A stretch of DNA of 41,861 nucleotides. It comes from Burkholderiales bacterium (GTDB lineage: Bacteria > Pseudomonadota > Gammaproteobacteria > Burkholderiales > Casimicrobiaceae). The stretch is from the NCBI GenBank assembly GCA_020851255.1, contig JADZDA010000133.1, positions 1-41,861 of the forward strand, given 5' to 3'. Numbering within the stretch: position 1 is the stretch's first letter; the number at the start of each line of letters is the position of its first letter. Positions 3,215-37,247 of this stretch are shown here, piece after piece. Under the pieces are notes generated by a model, which searched no databases, had not been told where the DNA came from, and saw only the letters and a program-made list of their open reading frames with translations. The position numbers and the translations under genes were made by a program.

Positions 3215-5500
3215 ATGCTCGCGCTGCCGCAGGTCACGCTCGTCTGCGCGGACACGCTCAACCACGCCCTCGCGCTCCGCGCGATCGAGCGCTGCGTCCG
3301 GCTGGCGCGCTTCGGCCGCGTCGTCTTCCTGACCGATGCGCTGCCCGCCGGCCTCGAGGCGCCACCGGCGGTCGAGATCGTCCGCATCGCGCCACTCGCC
3401 TCCCGCGACGACTACTCGCGTCTGGTGCTCAAGTCGCTCGCGCCGCACGTCGCCACGACCCACGCGCTCGTCGTCCAATGGGATGGTTACGTCGTCAACC
3501 CCGGCGCCTGGACCGACGAGTTCCTCGCGTACGACTACATCGGCGCGCCCTGGTACTGGCAGCCCGAGGGCCGGCGCGTCGGCAACGGCGGCTGCTCGCT
3601 GCGGTCGAGCCGGCTCCTCGCCGCGCTCGCGGACGAGCGCGTCGTGCTCGAAGGCAACGAGGACGAGACGATCTGCGTCGTGCAGCGCGGCTGGCTCGAG
3701 TCGGCGCACGGCATCCGGTTCGCCGGCGAAACGCTCGCGAACCGGTTCTCCTTCGAGGCGGCGCATCCGGTCGGCCGGCCGTTCGGATTCCACGGCCTGT
3801 TCAATTTCGCGCGCGTGGAGAGCGAACCGGAGATCGTCGCGATCGCGCCGATGCTCACCGACGCGATCGCGCGCTCGCCGCAGTGCGTGTCGCTGCTGCG
3901 CAACTGCCTCGCGCTCCAGCGCTGGACGGCGGCCGAGGCGATCGCGACGCGAATCGTCGCCGCGGGCGGCGAGCACGCGGCCGAAGCGTCCGCGGCGGGA
4001 TCCCAGGCGGCCGCGGCGCGACGGCGCGGCGTCGGCGTCGGACGCAACGACCCGTGTCCTTGCGGCAGCGGCCGGCGCTACAAGCAATGTCACGGAGCCG
4101 CCCCCGCGACGGCCAGGGCCACCGACGCGAATCCGGCGACCGCGCCGCCCCCGGACACCGACACGCTGGTGCGCACCGGCATGGTCGCGCACGAGGCCGG
4201 CCGGCTGGACGAAGCCCGCCGATCCTACGAGCGGGCGCTGGCGGCGCGGCCCGATCACCCGTACGCCGGGCACTACCTCGGCGTGCTCGATTACCAGCGC
4301 GGCGCGTATCCCGAGGCGATCGCGCGACTGGAGGCGGCGGCGCGCGCCCGGCCCGACGAACCGGACTTCCAGGTCAATCTCGGGCTCGCCTACGCGGCGG
4401 CGAACCGCCTCGAAGACGCGTGCGCCGCCCAGCGACGCGCGATCGCGATCGCACCCGGCAGTGCGGTCGCCTGGAACAACCTGGGCCTCGCGCTCCACGA
4501 GCGGAACCGTCACGACGACGCCGTCGACGCCTACGACCGGGCGCTCGCGCTCGATCCGCGGTTCGCTCGCGCGCGCTGGAACCGGGCGATGTCGCGCCTC
4601 GCACGCGGGGACCGCGGCGGCTGGGACGATTACGAGTCGCGCCTCGCGATCCGCGAACTCGGCGGCGTGTTTCCCGATCCCGGCGTCCCGCGCTGGACCG
4701 GTGACGACCCCGACGGCAGGACGATACTCGTCGACGCCGAGCAGGGTTACGGCGATACGCTGCAGTTCATCCGTTACGCGCAGCCGCTCGCCGACCGAGG
4801 TGCGCGCGTCGTCGTCCGCACGCAGGCCCCGCTCGCGCGACTCGTCGCGACCGCGCCCGGCGTCGCCGATGTGGTCGACCCGGGCCAGATCCCCGTGTGC
4901 GATGCGTGGCTGCCGCTCGTGTCGCTCGCCGGCTGGGCGCAGGCCTCGCCCCAGGGCGGCCCGCCGGATCCCCCGTACCTGCATGCGGACCCCGATCTCG
5001 TCGACGCCGCGAAAGCGCGGCTCGCGCGGGAGCCCGCGCGATGGAAGATCGGCCTCTCGTGGGCCGGCAATCCGGCGCAGGCGAACAATCGCCGGCGCTC
5101 CTGCCCGCTCGCCGCGCTCGCTCCGCTCCTCGCGCGCGACGACATCGCCTGTTATTCGCTCCAGCGGATCGACGGCGAGGACGAGATCGCGTCGGTGCCG
5201 GCGGCCCGCGCGCTGCGTCTGGTCGACGACCGCAACGATTTCGACCGCAAGGCGGCGCTGGTCTGCGCGCTCGACCTCGTGATCAGCGTGTGCACGTCGA
5301 ACGCGCACCTCGCCGGCGCGCTGGGGTGTCGCCCGTGGATCCTGCTCACGCACGCGCCCGACTGGCGATGGGGGCCGTCGGGGACGACCAGCGCGTGGTA
5401 TCCGGGCGCGCGACTGTTCCGGCAGCCTGCGCTCGGCGACTGGGCGGCGGTCGTCGCCGGGGTCGGGACCGCACTCGACCGGCTGGAGACGGACCGGTGA
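3215..5500 (+). CDS. DUF5672 - SEC-C - TPR - GT9-like fusion protein
   Basis: A 761-residue multidomain protein. Residues 1 to about 225 resemble DUF5672 glycosyltransferase-like domains (QWDGYVVNPGAW, DYIGAPWYW, GNGGCSLRS motifs). Residues 276-294 are a SEC-C zinc-binding motif (NDPCPCGSGRRYKQCHG), as found at the SecA C-terminus. TPR repeats occupy about 310-460. The C-terminal ~260 residues resemble TPR-linked GT9/heptosyltransferase-like domains (KIGLSWAGNP, SVCTSNAHLAGALGC, WYPGARLFRQ). No signal peptide or membrane span is seen, so it should be cytoplasmic. Expected activity is sugar transfer to a protein or glycan, possibly by two separate transferase domains. The start ATG is 3 bp after the upstream stop. 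The stop overlaps the next start by 4 bases (GTGA), which implies translational coupling. Confidence 0.85.
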   Translation: MLALPQVTLVCADTLNHALALRAIERCVRLARFGRVVFLTDALPAGLEAPPAVEIVRIAPLASRDDYSRLVLKSLAPHVATTHALVVQWDGYVVNPGAWTDEFLAYDYIGAPWYWQPEGRRVGNGGCSLRSSRLLAALADERVVLEGNEDETICVVQRGWLESAHGIRFAGETLANRFSFEAAHPVGRPFGFHGLFNFARVESEPEIVAIAPMLTDAIARSPQCVSLLRNCLALQRWTAAEAIATRIVAAGGEHAAEASAAGSQAAAARRRGVGVGRNDPCPCGSGRRYKQCHGAAPATARATDANPATAPPPDTDTLVRTGMVAHEAGRLDEARRSYERALAARPDHPYAGHYLGVLDYQRGAYPEAIARLEAAARARPDEPDFQVNLGLAYAAANRLEDACAAQRRAIAIAPGSAVAWNNLGLALHERNRHDDAVDAYDRALALDPRFARARWNRAMSRLARGDRGGWDDYESRLAIRELGGVFPDPGVPRWTGDDPDGRTILVDAEQGYGDTLQFIRYAQPLADRGARVVVRTQAPLARLVATAPGVADVVDPGQIPVCDAWLPLVSLAGWAQASPQGGPPDPPYLHADPDLVDAAKARLAREPARWKIGLSWAGNPAQANNRRRSCPLAALAPLLARDDIACYSLQRIDGEDEIASVPAARALRLVDDRNDFDRKAALVCALDLVISVCTSNAHLAGALGCRPWILLTHAPDWRWGPSGTTSAWYPGARLFRQPALGDWAAVVAGVGTALDRLETDR

Positions 5501-15515: not shown

Positions 15516-16819
15516 CGCGGATCGGCGCCCGGAAGGCGCCCGGCGATCCGCGCCCACGCGAGCTTCGCGCGCATCCACGGCAATACGAACCACCACCGCA
15601 CCGACTGGCGGTACGCGATGATCCGCTCCTGCGCCGCGAGCGCCCGGTCGAGCCGCCCGCATTCGGCGGCGAGTTCGCCCAGGCGATGGTCGGCGGCGGC
15701 GAGATCGGACGCGAGTCCCGGCACGCGTGCCGCTTCGCGTTCGACCGCGGCGATCCGCTCTCCGCGCGCGGCGATCTCCGCGTCTCGGCCGGCGAGCGCC
15801 TGGTCCCGCTCGACGACGATCCGCTCGCGGAACGCGCACAGCTCCTCGAGGTGGCGCACGTGCGCGTGCGCCTCGGTGAGCTGGCGGTCGCGCTCGACGA
15901 CCAGCCGTTCCCGCTCGGTGACCAGCGGCTCGAGCCGCGCGTTGAGCGCCTCCAGGTGGCGCACGTGCGCGTGCGCCCCGGCGAGCTGGCGGTCGCGCTC
16001 GACGACCAGCGCCTCGCGTTCGCGCGCGAGCGCGTCGAGCCGCAGCGCCTCGGCGGCCTGCCGCGCCGCGCGCTTCCACTCGGTCTCGCCGGCGTCGGAG
16101 AAGAGCGAGAGCGCCGGCGCGGGCGCGGGCAGCGCCGTCGGCACTCGCGCCGCGACGACGACGAAGTACATCGGTTCGGGCGCCGCCGCCGGCGCGACGC
16201 GGGCCGCGTCGCCGTTCCACGCCTCCGCGCCCTCGCCGCCCGCCTCGCGCCACAGCGTCGAGCCCAGCCAGACGCGCTGCGCGTACCACTCGCGCGCCGG
16301 GAACGCGGTGTCGAGCAACCGCGACAACTCCGCGCGGTCGTGCTCGTGCCGGTGATAGGGATTCGCGTAGGCGCGCGCCTCGGAATACTCGCGCCGGTTG
16401 GGCGCGGAGAGCACGAGCACGCCGTCGGGCGCGAGCACGCGCGCGACTTCCGCGAGCATCGGGCCCTGGTCGGACGCGTCGAGATGCTCGAGGGTCTCGA
16501 ACGACACGACGAGGTCGACGCTCGCGTCGGCGAGCGGCAGGCGGGTCGCCGAGCCTTCGGCGAAGCGCAGGTTGGCGACGGCGGCGTACGCGGCGCGCGC
16601 GTGGGCGATCGTCGGCGCGTCGATGTCGACGCCGACGACCTCGCGCGCGGCGCCGGCCAGCAGCGCGCTGCCGTAACCCTCGCCGCAGGCGACGTCGAGC
16701 ACGCGCCGGCCGGCGGCGTAGCGCAGCGCGAACGCGTAGCGGTGGACGTGCTCGTAGACGATCTCGCCGCCCACACCGGGGACGAAGCGCTCGCCGGTGA
16801 ACGTGAGGGAGGTGTCCAT
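15512..16819 (-). CDS. SAM-dependent methyltransferase with a long coiled-coil tail
   Basis: A 435-residue protein and the first gene of the minus-strand glycosylation operon. Residues about 1-190 form a class I methyltransferase: motif I VLDVACGEGYGSALL (about 39-53), acidic GVDID, then LVVSFETLEHLD and LAPDGVLVLSAPN. Residues about 240-390 are a charged coiled coil with near-identical 35-residue repeats built on VVERDRQL and AHAHVRHLE. Methyltransferase/coiled-coil fusions are known as chain-length terminators of O-antigens (WbdD type), where the coiled coil acts as a ruler. A similar role is possible here, with wzm-wzt nearby, but this is inference. ATG at 16819 is chosen because the conserved FTGERFVPG start follows it directly. 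Earlier in-frame sequence is proline/arginine-rich and non-conserved in appearance. Confidence 0.85.
   Translation of the reverse strand: MDTSLTFTGERFVPGVGGEIVYEHVHRYAFALRYAAGRRVLDVACGEGYGSALLAGAAREVVGVDIDAPTIAHARAAYAAVANLRFAEGSATRLPLADASVDLVVSFETLEHLDASDQGPMLAEVARVLAPDGVLVLSAPNRREYSEARAYANPYHRHEHDRAELSRLLDTAFPAREWYAQRVWLGSTLWREAGGEGAEAWNGDAARVAPAAAPEPMYFVVVAARVPTALPAPAPALSLFSDAGETEWKRAARQAAEALRLDALAREREALVVERDRQLAGAHAHVRHLEALNARLEPLVTERERLVVERDRQLTEAHAHVRHLEELCAFRERIVVERDQALAGRDAEIAARGERIAAVEREAARVPGLASDLAAADHRLGELAAECGRLDRALAAQERIIAYRQSVRWWFVLPWMRAKLAWARIAGRLPGADPR
15795..16010 (-). repeat. 105-bp coding repeats in the coiled coil
   Basis: The segment beginning gtggcgcacgtgcgcgtgcg at 15851 recurs almost unchanged at 15956. 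That is a spacing of 105 bp, or 35 codons. A shorter related block (cgctcgacga near 15807, 15891 and 15996) marks a third partial copy. The unit encodes the VVERDRQL...AHAHVRHLE coiled-coil module. Confidence 0.8.
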
Positions 16820-30721: not shown

Positions 30722-32133
30722 GGCTTGCCTCCCTTCGCCGCGGCGGGCGCCGACGGCACCGGCGCAGGGACGATCGGGCCCGCGGCCCCGGCGGGAGTCG
30801 CCGGTGCGGGACCGGGCGCCGATGCGGGCGCCGTTGCGGGCGCCGTTGCGGGCGCGGGCGCCGTAGCGGGCGCCGTTGCGGGCGCCGTTGCGGGCGCGGG
30901 CGCCGCGGCGGCGGGCGCGACCAGCGGCGGCGGCTCGATCAACGGCACGCTGGCCGGCCGGGGCGCAGGCTTCAACTGCGCCGACAGGTCGAAGATCTCG
31001 CCGGGGCCCGGCTGGATCTTGGTCGTCGGCGACCGGGGCGCGACCTGCGCGACCAGGCCGGATTCCTCGAGGACCGGGATCAGCTTGCCGGCGTTGCCCG
31101 ACTCGCCGCGCATCGCGAGCTCGCGCTCGCGCTCGCGGCCGCGCGGCACCGTGCGCACGTCGAGCTGGGTGAGCCAGGTGTCGTCCGGCAGCACGCGCGT
31201 GACCGTGTCGAGCACCTTCACCATCGGCGGCCAGGCGTGCTTGCGCTCGAGCGCGTAGTTGTAGTCGGCGACCGCCTTCTCCAGGTCGGCGCGCAGGCGC
31301 TCCGAGACCGCCGCCTGCTGGCGCGCGGTTTCGGCGCGCTGGATCACCGCGATCGCGGTCTCGCGCTTCTGCCAGACCGGCACGACCATCGCAGCCAGCG
31401 CGAGCAGCGCGATCGACCCGAGCGGCAGCCAGACCTGCCAGCGCGTCCACGACGGCGCGGCGACGCGCGCCTCGTCGGGGACGAGGTTGAGTGTCGACGA
31501 GGCGACCGCGTCGGCGGACTCGGGCGAGACGCCCGTCACTTCGGCGCCCCACGCGGCGACGCGTGCGAGCGCCTCGTCGACGACCGGGCGGCGCGCGGCC
31601 GCGAAGTCGACGTCGATCGTGCCCTGCGCGGCGTCGCGGCCGACGATCGCGGCGTCGTAGTAGACCTCGTCGGCCTTGAACGGCGTCAGCCGGTCGAGGT
31701 CGTAGCCGATCGCCGCGCGCAGGTTCTCCTCGACCGCGGCGGGCAGGACCAGCCGGCGGCGCAGCACCGAGCGCGGCGGCAGCGCGACGCGGACCCGGGT
31801 CGCGGCGGCGGCCCCGCCGTAGACGACGCGGGCGAGCGATCCGACCGCGCGCCGGCCCGCCTCGTCGACCTGCGCGGGATCGCCGTCGAGCGGAATGCGG
31901 GCGAGTTCGGTCATCGCGAGCGCGCCGTCGACGATCGCCGGGCGCAGGATCGTGGCCGCGCCGGTGTCGAACGCGACGACCGGTCGCGCGCGACGGCGCC
32001 GCAGCGCGTTGCGCGCGCCGCCGGGCACGAGCGCGGCGAGTTCGCCGGCCCACCAGCGCAGGAACGCGGCGGCTCCGCCGGTCGCGGTGGCGCGGTACGA
32101 AGCTTCCGGAGCGGGGCTACGGTCGAGCGGCAT
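30718..32133 (-). CDS. gspL: GspL, T2SS platform protein with Ala/Pro/Thr tail
   Basis: A 471-residue protein. The N-terminal ~220 residues are an actin-like cytoplasmic GspL/PilM-type domain (PVVAFDTGAAT, LRRRLVLPAAVEENLRAAIGYDLDRLTPF), which recruits GspE. One span lies at about 231-252. A coiled region and a PilN-like periplasmic domain follow (KVLDTVTRVLPDDTWLTQLDV). The last ~65 residues are PAT/APA repeats encoded by a 12-bp minisatellite. Its ATG lies inside the end of gspK (17-bp overlap), so translation is coupled. The domain order is as in XpsL-type systems. Confidence 0.92.
   Translation of the reverse strand: MPLDRSPAPEASYRATATGGAAAFLRWWAGELAALVPGGARNALRRRRARPVVAFDTGAATILRPAIVDGALAMTELARIPLDGDPAQVDEAGRRAVGSLARVVYGGAAAATRVRVALPPRSVLRRRLVLPAAVEENLRAAIGYDLDRLTPFKADEVYYDAAIVGRDAAQGTIDVDFAAARRPVVDEALARVAAWGAEVTGVSPESADAVASSTLNLVPDEARVAAPSWTRWQVWLPLGSIALLALAAMVVPVWQKRETAIAVIQRAETARQQAAVSERLRADLEKAVADYNYALERKHAWPPMVKVLDTVTRVLPDDTWLTQLDVRTVPRGRERERELAMRGESGNAGKLIPVLEESGLVAQVAPRSPTTKIQPGPGEIFDLSAQLKPAPRPASVPLIEPPPLVAPAAAAPAPATAPATAPATAPAPATAPATAPASAPGPAPATPAGAAGPIVPAPVPSAPAAAKGGKP
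30821..30904 (-). repeat. In-frame 12-bp/42-bp minisatellite in gspL
   Basis: The unit gttgcgggcgcc is repeated, organised as two 42-bp higher-order copies (30821-30862 and 30863-30904), each 12+12+12+6 bp. All lengths are multiples of three. It encodes alternating Ala-Pro-Ala-Thr residues. Confidence 0.9.
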
Positions 32134-33475
32134 CGTTGTCGGTCTTCTTGTCGGCGGCCGCGTCCGGCGCGGCGGCGCCTTCGAGCCACGCCAGCACCAC
32201 GAGCGGCCGGGCAGGGTCCGGCGAGGGCCGGAGGACCGCTTCGCGGACGAAGGTTACACCATCGGGCAGGCTCGCCTGCGCGCGCACCCGCCAGGTCTGG
32301 ATCGCACCCGAGGCGAGTCCCTGCGCACCGGGGAACGGCGGCACCGGCTGGCGCGCGCGCAGCGCCGCGTCGCGGGTGGCGAGGTAGGCGTCCACGTCGG
32401 CCGCCTGCACGCCCGGCAGCGCGAGCAGGACCTCGCGCGACGCGGTCTGCGGATTGATGCCCGGCTGGCGCGAATGGACGGTCAGGCTCCCGACGACGCG
32501 CGAGTAGATCGCCGGCGTCATGCCCAGCACGCGCGCGACTTCGCCGACGGTCTCGAACGGCGCGTTCGCCGGTCCGGTCTTCGCGCCGGCCGCCGCGTAG
32601 TCGGCCGATTCGGCGCCGTTGGGACGCTTCAGGTCGTCGGGATCGCGCCAGTCGATCACCGCGTCGGCCAGACGCGCGGCCGCATCGGCGTCGGCGCCGC
32701 CCACGTTGCCGAACAGTCCGCGCAGCAAGGTCTCGGAGGCGGCGTTCAGGTCGATCTTGGCGGTCTCGTCGGTCGCGACCGCGACGATCGCGAGGTCGTC
32801 TTCCTGCCAGGCGTGAGGCTCGGCGTTCGGCGACCAGGCGTCGGGCAGCCGCGGGCGGGCGAGTTCGTAGGCGGTGCGCTCGATCGCGCCGTCGGCGGCC
32901 GCGCGCACGCGCGCGATCGCGATCGCGTTGCCGGCGGCGAGCGCCTCGTTGCGCATCGCGTACGAGAACCCCCCGGCCATCACCGTCAGCATCACCGTGA
33001 TCCACAGCACCAGCACCAGCGCGATGCCCCGCTGCGCGGCCGGAGCCGGCGTCCGCGACCTGCCCCCGCCCCCGGGGGCGAGGCCCGCGCTGCGAGCTTC
33101 GGGGGAAACACCACCCCACCGCCGTTGCGGAAGGACACGGCGCGCGAAGGGCCGCCCCGAGCGCGCCGTACCGCCCCCCTCGGGGGGGAGGCCCGCGCAG
33201 CGGGCGTCGGGGGGGATCCTTCCGCGCGCGCCGGGCCGCCCCGAGCGCGCCGTACCGCCCCCCTGGGGGGGGACGCTCGCGCAGCGAGCTACGGGGGGGA
33301 TCCTTCCGCGCGCGACGGGCAGACCCGAGCGCTCCGTACCGCCACCCCCGGGGTGGAGTCCCGCGCAGCGGGCTTCGGGGGGGATCCTTCCGCGCGCGAA
33401 GGGCCGCCCCGAGCGCGCCGTACCGCCCCCCTCGGGGGGGAGACTCGCGCAGCGAGTTTCGGGGGGGATCCTCAT
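32117..33475 (-). CDS. gspK: GspK minor pseudopilin with a 150-residue repeat-containing leader
   Basis: A 452-residue product. The mature part (from Ile151, after QRG) is a normal ~302-residue GspK: hydrophobic IALVLVLWITVMLTV, no Glu at position 5 as usual for GspK, then TAKIDLNAASETLLRGLF, VIDWRDPDDLKRPN and the FETVGEVARVLGM helical domain. It should cap the pseudopilus tip with GspI and GspJ. The ATG at 33475 overlaps the gspJ stop (ATGA), like the other genes here. Between it and residue 151 the frame runs through four 84-bp repeats. No ATG, GTG or TTG codon occurs in frame until inside the hydrophobic segment, so a shorter start is not available. The leader is far longer than the usual 6-30 residues. 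Confidence 0.88.
   Translation of the reverse strand: MRIPPETRCASLPPEGGGTARSGRPFARGRIPPEARCAGLHPGGGGTERSGLPVARGRIPPVARCASVPPQGGGTARSGRPGARGRIPPDARCAGLPPEGGGTARSGRPFARRVLPQRRWGGVSPEARSAGLAPGGGGRSRTPAPAAQRGIALVLVLWITVMLTVMAGGFSYAMRNEALAAGNAIAIARVRAAADGAIERTAYELARPRLPDAWSPNAEPHAWQEDDLAIVAVATDETAKIDLNAASETLLRGLFGNVGGADADAAARLADAVIDWRDPDDLKRPNGAESADYAAAGAKTGPANAPFETVGEVARVLGMTPAIYSRVVGSLTVHSRQPGINPQTASREVLLALPGVQAADVDAYLATRDAALRARQPVPPFPGAQGLASGAIQTWRVRAQASLPDGVTFVREAVLRPSPDPARPLVVLAWLEGAAAPDAAADKKTDNDAARP
33061..33106. repeat. Partial fifth copy of the 84-bp repeat
   Basis: The C-run/G-run and cccgcgctgcgag portion of the unit recurs, but the small stem has lost perfect pairing and the G-run is shortened. 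It appears to be a decayed copy at the gspK-proximal end. Confidence 0.7.
33133..33468. repeat. Four tandem 84-bp GC-rich repeats inside the start of gspK
   Basis: Units at 33133-33216, 33217-33300, 33301-33384 and 33385-33468 have an exact 84-bp period, each ending in a G-run followed by GA (TCC begins the next). Each unit carries two hairpins: a C-run/G-run stem and a six-base stem closed over GCA. Stem bases differ between units with pairing kept. I associate this sequence type with dispersed repeats of Burkholderiales genomes. Read on the minus strand each unit encodes 28 residues of the RIPPxxRCAxxPPxGGGTxRSG type. Confidence 0.95.
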
Positions 33476-34161
33476 CCCTGCACGCACCGCCCGCGCGCCT
33501 GGTCCCAGGCCCGGCATCCGGCCTCGGGCGCCTCGCGCGGCGCGGCATAGAGCGTCGGCCACTTCGGACCGCGCCGGGGTTCGACGTCGATGCGGATCAT
33601 CATCGGCAGCCGCTGCAGGTCCTCCCAGCGGTCGCGCCAGGCGGGCTCGAATCCCTCCTGCAGCCCGGCCTCGCGCCCGTAGTAGCCGATGGCGAGCGAC
33701 TTGACGTCGGTGGCGAGCACCGAGTGCTCGGCGCCGGCGAAATCCGGCGGCGCCGACGCGTTGACGTCGGGGATGGTCCGGTCGAGCAGGAGCGACGGCC
33801 GCCCGTCGACTTCGGCGATCCTCAGCCGGTAGTACCAGAGACCGCCGCCCTGGACGCGCGCGGGCAGCGGCGCCGCGAAGCGCATCTCCTCGCGCTCGCC
33901 GCGGAAGAGCAGCGGATACTCGGCGACCTTCTTCAACCGCTGCCCGTGCTGGCCCTCGATCTGCGCGCGCAGGAACCCGTGCGTCACGCGCATCGACGTG
34001 TTCTCCTCGACCTTCGTCTCCCCGGCCTCGGTGCTGCGCGCCGCGAGCGCGAGCGAGCCCGCGAGCACGGCCGACATGAGCGCCAGCAACGCGAGCGCGA
34101 TCAGGAGCTCGACCAGCGTGAAGCCGCCGGCGGGGCCGCGGGTGCGCGCCGGGACGCTCAT
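33472..34161 (-). CDS. gspJ: GspJ minor pseudopilin
   Basis: A 229-residue type IV pilin-like protein. A 13-residue leader ends in Gly13, then FTLVELLIALALLAL with Glu5. The C-terminal domain (RFAAPLPARVQGGGLWYYRLRI, VKSLAIGYYGREAG) is typical of GspJ. It is processed by the prepilin peptidase and forms the pseudopilus tip with GspI and GspK. ATG overlaps the gspI stop and its stop overlaps the gspK ATG. Confidence 0.93.
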   Translation of the reverse strand: MSVPARTRGPAGGFTLVELLIALALLALMSAVLAGSLALAARSTEAGETKVEENTSMRVTHGFLRAQIEGQHGQRLKKVAEYPLLFRGEREEMRFAAPLPARVQGGGLWYYRLRIAEVDGRPSLLLDRTIPDVNASAPPDFAGAEHSVLATDVKSLAIGYYGREAGLQEGFEPAWRDRWEDLQRLPMMIRIDVEPRRGPKWPTLYAAPREAPEAGCRAWDQARGRCVQG

Positions 34162-37046: not shown

Positions 37047-37247
37047 CGGATCAGCGCGGCCCGGCGCAGGACTCCGCACCGACCGGCCGCGATGCGCGAC
37101 CCGGAGCGCCCGGTTCGTCGTGCAGTCGCCGGCGGTCGCCGCCGGGCCGCCCCAGGGCGATCGCGTCGAGCCCTTCCCGATGCGCAAGGCGCGACGCGCT
37201 CGTCGCGCCATCTCCTGCGGTCACGGACGCCTTTCGCATCGGACCCG

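Follow-up and report, generated by a model that had tools for sequence, protein, structure and literature searches.

Introduction

REPs at the 5' ends of open reading frames are reportedly the subject of a study by Di Nocera et al. According to the excerpted sections of PMC3733652, REPs (GTAG/CGTC) are situated near the 3' ends of upstream ORFs, at a distance of less than 20 bp in most convergent cases, and are sometimes clustered and placed in frame inside ORFs, where clusters encode 43–82 amino acids in Thauera and R. conorii. For three species, the same sections treat most of the REPs located at 5' ends of ORFs as possibly noncoding and acting post-transcriptionally, and the words "pilin" and "pilus" are absent from the main text of the paper. 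RPEs are described, in the excerpt of PMC10969869 used here, as in-frame palindromic inserts of about 150 bp in unrelated Rickettsia genes and are said to encode a conserved peptide. Since they are described for REPs and RPEs in these excerpts, both the placement behind stop codons and the in-frame decoration of genes are already known.

Prepilins carry leaders of 6–26 residues, or of about 15–30 residues in type b, according to an excerpt of PMC4471445, and the quoted part of PMC4832360 terms an 18-residue leader of S. sanguinis much longer than canonical. The leader remains in the cytoplasm by the positive-inside rule (excerpt of PMC10191384). Our literature search, which covered titles and abstract openings of open-licence PMC articles, returned neither repeats in prepilin or pseudopilin leaders nor a leader as long as the one described here.

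We analysed a 41,861-nt stretch of DNA (the window; contig JADZDA010000133.1) of a Burkholderiales bacterium, whose genome is referred to as G000. The locus is of interest for a very long predicted prepilin leader and for the recurrence of repeats in leaders that would be cleaved off.

Results

The gspK reading frame and its predicted leader

The minus strand of the window harbors a type II secretion operon in which all frames are open. The product of gspK matches the Pfam family T2SSK_1st (PF21687) with an E value of 8.2e-17 over residues 243–332, and T2SSE, T2SSF, GspH, N_methyl, PilM_2, and T2SSM_b domains are encoded by its neighbours. A prepilin peptidase gene is present in the same genome (PF01478, 2.7e-29).

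In the sequence-only reading the gspK ATG had been placed in an overlap with the gspJ stop codon, and it was claimed that no further standard start precedes the hydrophobic segment. The coordinates agree with the ATGA overlap (Table 1), and a codon scan found no in-frame ATG, GTG, or TTG in codons 2 to 150; the first later standard start is the GTG at codon 154, within the hydrophobic segment. The predicted leader therefore comprises 150 residues, the length given in that reading, provided that the cleavage-site Gly is counted.

As in class III signal peptides, the leader is hydrophilic, positively charged, and terminated by Gly ahead of a hydrophobic stretch; the highest 19-residue hydropathy is 0.43 within the leader versus 2.4 behind it. 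Its 150 residues lie outside the 6–26 (up to about 30) residues of this class. The cleavage-site Gly is invariant in the 20 aligned sequences. The predicted mature protein has 302 residues (31.5 kDa), and its mean identity to three relatives is 72.0%, compared with 69.2% for GspJ, 68.8% for GspI, and 63.8% for GspL. Judged from these identities, mature GspK shows no loss of constraint and is the best conserved among I, J, K, and L.

The repeat array

TRF reports an array at 33140–33472 with a period of 84, 4.0 copies, 87% matches, and a score of 526. The frame is open throughout, which upholds the proposal of an in-frame tandem array in gspK. The array had been described as four exact 84-bp units plus a decayed fifth one. 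The array as such was recovered, but its units are not exact: units 1–4 have 71–77 of 84 bases in common pairwise (85–92%), and the fifth unit is partial and spaced 108 nt, not 84, from unit 4.

Table 1. Coordinates of the features in the window and of related elements at other loci
Feature	Location	Strand	Remarks
gspK	33475→32117	-	452-codon frame from ATG overlapping gspJ; precursor 452 aa, 46.5 kDa
gspJ	33472..34161	-	upstream gene, stop precedes array; N_methyl domain
ATGA	33472..33475	-	gspJ stop TGA overlapping gspK start ATG
Repeat unit 1	33389..33472	-	84 nt; begins directly behind gspJ stop
Repeat unit 2	33305..33388	-	84 nt
Repeat unit 3	33221..33304	-	84 nt
Repeat unit 4	33137..33220	-	84 nt
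Repeat unit 5, decayed, partial	33056..33109	-	cmsearch 41.7 bits
Predicted prepilin leader, 150 residues	33026..33475	-	ends Gly150; 15.1 kDa, pI 12, net charge +19
N-terminal hydrophobic segment, mature GspK	32963..33025	-	IALVLVLWITVMLT...; end approximate; peak 19-residue hydropathy 2.4
In-gene element, alaS of G001	L183 1510-1582		
Five further genes with in-gene antisense element	L165, L182, L187, L196, L199		
Other-family leader repeats	gspH L045, L046, L061; gspI L047, L057, L064; gspJ L047, L051; gspK L056		

Comparison of the four gspK units with one another gave a dN/dS of 1.02 for the coding frame; the two alternative frames gave 0.88 and 1.06. The amino acids of the element are therefore not conserved, and neither a selected repeat-encoded peptide nor the suggested "domestication" of the repeat in that sense is supported. 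The open frame through the array is weak evidence of coding. The GC-rich unit contains hardly any stops in whichever frame it is read (none in 22 of the 24 translations obtained per unit and frame), so that an open frame says little; when the 23 leader junctions of 105–700 nt were examined, 20 lacked a stop in the coding frame, and 18 and 7 lacked one in the two other frames. A period divisible by 3 was dropped as a coding sign, because multiples of 3 also make up 9 of the 13 spacings that the element shows elsewhere in the same genome, outside gspK. A codon-usage gene finder did not call the array coding and started gspK at the GTG at 33016.

Two further tandem repeats were noticed in the window: an Ala/Pro/Thr-rich one near the gspL C-terminus (30799-30905; 42 bp, 2.5 copies) and one of 105 bp inside a predicted gene (15840-16043; 1.9 copies, 85% matches).

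A dispersed element with covarying stems

The gspK unit has 14 matches in G000 including the array; those beyond the array lie on other contigs, the best with an E value of 4e-27, so the repeat exceeds what chance would give. With a covariance model at least 20 matches were obtained in this genome, array included, when 150 of 12562 candidates were scored. The same search was carried out across 25 genomes with 150 candidates scored per genome, and among the matches listed the element is present in at least nine of them, namely in 9 of 16 genomes of the window's genus and in 0 of 9 others.

The element is about 75–84 nt long and has three stems, which were named by the analyst in an alignment of 18 units, four of them from gspK, and then counted. 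Over these units 91.9% of the stem cells are paired. Double changes were found in 32 cells, compared with 10.9±2.3 after shuffling; none of 500 shuffles reached this number, and slid controls remained far lower. The folding of single units is no better than that of dinucleotide shuffles (z -0.54 to 1.80), so the structure rests on covariation, not on energy. The repeat is, on this basis, a dispersed element of predicted hairpins with covarying stems.

The Rfam scan of the window yielded no family at threshold. By-eye counting found the GTAG tag of REPs in only 8 of the 18 aligned units. A search of G000, which is 86% complete, for the Y1 transposase (PF01797) gave no match, and a RAYT-driven REP was set aside as a candidate on this ground.

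Location of the element in three genomes

Among the matches listed for G000 and its relatives G001 and G014 we distinguished 57 arrays (84 model matches); the surrounding genes were called by a codon-usage script. The element is mostly situated outside the called genes. Thirty-six arrays begin at most 15 nt behind a same-strand stop codon, as is typical of the 3'-end placement of REPs, and five lie farther than 15 nt from one. The upstream gene is on the other strand for nine arrays, six are located wholly within a predicted gene of the other strand, and one is without a known upstream gene.

The position of the gspK array is explained by this preference, since the element usually follows directly on a stop codon. 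It falls within coding sequence because, owing to the ATGA overlap, the base after the gspJ TGA already belongs to gspK. The gspK copy is an ordinary post-stop insertion into an ATGA overlap, in frame. The view that a usually intergenic repeat is found here in frame can be kept, with the amendment that the typical site is directly post-stop.

The element in the frames of other genes

Same-strand genes flank 30 of the 57 arrays on both sides, and in 15 of these 30 an ATG is found from 1 base before to 4 bases after the first base of the stop codon. For 3 of 3 pseudopilin genes (gspK of the window, gspI and gspJ of G001), such an ATG is in frame and the element can be read through without a stop, versus 0 of 12 other genes (Fisher 0.002). 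In three further arrays an ATG follows at a distance of 8–10 bases, and none of these is in frame and open. With GTG and TTG admitted as starts, an in-frame and open passage is also seen for 6 of 27 non-pseudopilin genes (L104, L163, L168, L176, L193, and L194; Fisher 0.02); some of the element sites are orthologous between genomes, so these in-frame counts are not fully independent. The 27 downstream genes encode enzyme, transporter, assembly, and unknown-function Pfam families, with one PilN and no pilin among them.

In a DUF815 gene of G014 (L193 1556-1629) no in-frame start follows the GTG overlap before codon 117, which already lies within the domain. The element is also in frame from the GTG overlap at the DUF815 junctions of G000 (L104 2634-2707) and G001 (L176 1521-1669), and later starts are available in the G000 gene. 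In a DUF1688 gene of G001 (L168) the sole other early start lies between its two element units. From the positions of these starts, the element seems to be read through in the L193 and L168 genes. The presence of the element at one DUF815 upstream stop in three genomes points to an old insertion or a repeatedly used site. The element was also seen before similar nucleotidyltransferase genes in two genomes (L178 1517-1589 and L194 1564-1714), with the ATG not in frame.

Six arrays are situated antisense in the middle of ordinary genes, and the host frame is open through the element in each. The hosts encode an alanyl-tRNA synthetase, a PLP enzyme, an oxidoreductase, an ABC ATPase, an S9 peptidase, and a DUF3482 GTPase. 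The alanyl-tRNA synthetase of G001 (L183, with L212 and L213) contains a 28-residue insert between positions 223 and 225 of chain 3hxu, which is missing from that chain and from the G014 protein. A second, partial alaS is located on another G001 contig and shares 68% DNA identity over the principal aligned segment; contamination or a spare copy may therefore be involved. The in-frame alaS insert supports, in principle, the translation of the element, and the DUF815 gene of G014 lends support to reading through it as well.

Together with the three pseudopilin leaders and the 6 of 27 other downstream genes, the six in-gene arrays place the element in frame in unrelated protein genes, as is described for RPEs. 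The idea that leaders alone tolerate the element is ruled out by the in-gene arrays and by the DUF815 and DUF1688 N-termini; leaders are at most a favoured place for it.

Repeats in the leader junctions of related gsp operons

The E–N and D gsp junctions of the window were set against those of 32 other loci (L045–L076), giving 33 loci in all. Of 31 loci, 29 have 11–120 nt between the gspJ stop and the start of the GspK hydrophobic segment, and the outliers are L056 with 299 nt, which has a different repeat, and the window with 446 nt. Relatives thus lack the repeat at the gspK start, in line with the comparison proposed in the sequence-only reading. The junction CAGGGATGA is common to the window, L045, and L048; for this reason the gspK start is probably ancestral, the repeats having been added later. 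No gspK array was seen in closer relatives, for which 22 genomes of the genus were inspected (G003, G013, and G021 without a visible junction).

Palindromic repeats were scored in 12 of 122 leader junctions (gspH, gspI, gspJ, and gspK), distributed over 10 loci, versus 3 of 127 other gsp junctions (EF, KL, LM, MN, and ND; Fisher 0.016), the leader repeat counts being the analyst's own scoring, made with the data already in view. The counts cover junctions of -100 to 700 nt, which removed gspI–gspJ of L066 with 832 nt, among others. The 29 gspF–gspG junctions were omitted from both groups, gspG having a leader too and a longer spacer of its own; in L071 a repeat occurs in this omitted junction. 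Two observations were made beside these counts. The gspE-gspF junction of the window (204 nt; 37048-37246) matches a stretch of G015 (L095, E 8.8e-9) and represents another repeat in the operon, and in the distant relative L071 a 200-bp direct duplication (94% matches) is found upstream of gspK (3676-4076).

Several repeat families occur in the leaders, and the window's own family is also present in gspI and gspJ of L048. Seven of the 12 leader repeats have further copies in their own genome: gspK of the window, gspI and gspJ of L048, gspH of L045, gspI of L047, gspI of L057, and gspK of L056, the last resting on one weak match in a sample. The remaining five were judged from their sequence form or from matches in other loci. 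The L057 repeat has 67 other matches in G012 and the L047 gspI repeat 63 others in G008; dispersed copies of the L045 gspH leader repeat were confirmed as well.

Each of the 12 repeat-bearing leaders is positively charged overall (net +3 to +19). In six of them TRF found arrays, with periods of 84, 87, 87, 87, 72, and 93/54/39, all divisible by 3. Four leaders, namely those of gspK in the window and of gspI in L048, L057, and L064, have no in-frame standard start between the (last) repeat and the Gly, and for this reason translation through the repeat or a nonstandard start would be needed in these four.

Discussion

The gspK array of the window can be understood as the product of a REP-like element of the window's genus, dispersed and hairpin-forming, that has expanded locally. 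By way of the ATGA overlap, an element inserted behind the gspJ stop would land just past the first codon of gspK, and as the array does not shift the frame and its unit contains hardly any stops, gspK would be read through it. Translation coupled to gspJ would then give a 452-residue precursor with an Arg/Gly/Pro-rich and strongly positive leader, which would be kept in the cytoplasm and cut off behind Gly150 by the prepilin peptidase, leaving an ordinary mature pseudopilin. The amino acids of the element would be passengers without sequence constraint and, in a pseudopilin, would be removed in addition. We regard it as probable that an in-frame expansion of the element yields a translated and cleaved GspK leader of 150 residues. 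From the sequence we infer translation through the array, cleavage, function, and the lack of an effect on expression. The best reading is that the leader would be tolerated and taken off by the prepilin peptidase, and a passenger-tolerant leader before a still needed GspK is the reading that fits.

The hairpins between gspJ and gspK might instead act on the mRNA and lower the translation of gspK or alter transcript stability, GspK being weakly started at a nonstandard codon close to the hydrophobic segment and the open frame being incidental. Such a role would suit a structured element with covarying stems that is mostly found outside called genes, and the post-transcriptional role considered for REPs at ORF 5' ends in the excerpt of PMC3733652 points the same way. 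We consider it unlikely, however: from the array to Gly150 there is neither ATG nor GTG nor TTG, a start at GTG codon 154 would forfeit the leader together with the Gly that is invariant in 20 sequences, the frame is intact through five units, and single units fold no better than their dinucleotide shuffles.

A leader far beyond the range given in the excerpt of PMC4471445 could also be the mark of a gspK or an operon that is losing its function in this lineage, with the array as a disruptive insertion that has not yet decayed further. This appears quite improbable, as the operon frames are open, the identities to three relatives place mature GspK ahead of I, J, and L in conservation, and the decayed unit 5 argues for an insertion that is probably not very recent. 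An assembly artefact, i.e., a wrong copy number or unit sequence, might be suspected from the draft state of the genome (313 contigs, 86% complete and 4.8% contaminated) and from the long C and G runs of the array. We hold it to be highly improbable, since the units differ at 7–13 of 84 positions and are thus not a collapsed consensus, and leader arrays are present in independent assemblies.

If the array is translated to give the 150-residue leader, the size range of prepilin leaders in the excerpted literature would be stretched more than fivefold, and the locus would offer a natural test of the tolerance of both the peptidase and the targeting machinery. More generally, prepilin leaders might be a favoured landing zone for mobile palindromic DNA, with the peptidase processing leaders of 150 residues; in-frame repeats of unrelated families would then pile up repeatedly in pseudopilin genes and leave the mature protein unaltered, because the peptidase discards everything before the Gly. 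We advance this only tentatively and consider it rather doubtful. If it is true, repeat-encoded protein is made and then thrown away. The element provides a setting for asking why coding sequences retain palindromic repeats, whether in a segment that is removed, an N-terminus, or a loop. Annotators are also warned by this locus that the starts of GC-rich pseudopilin genes are easily misplaced.

Among known systems, the class III signal peptide is matched by the hydrophilic, positive, and Gly-ended leader, the hydrophobic stretch, the type II secretion operon, and the peptidase gene; the 150 residues of the leader differ from the 6–26 given in the excerpted source. With REPs, as the excerpt of PMC3733652 describes them, the element of the window shares that it is short, palindromic, dispersed, near ORF 3' ends, clustered, and sometimes in frame. 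It differs from them in its length of about 75–84 nt with three stems, in having GTAG in 8 of 18 units, and in that no Y1 transposase was found in G000; moreover, the array and its flanks in gspK make a leader of 150 amino acids, whereas the excerpt gives 43–82 for REP clusters. Like RPEs in the excerpt of PMC10969869, the element also occurs in frame within genes of relatives, alaS among them. Going by the published description of RPEs, it differs from them in that its units lack amino-acid constraint and its main location is post-stop. The gspK feature is best seen as a decoration of the REP/RPE type, sited in a leader that the peptidase should remove.
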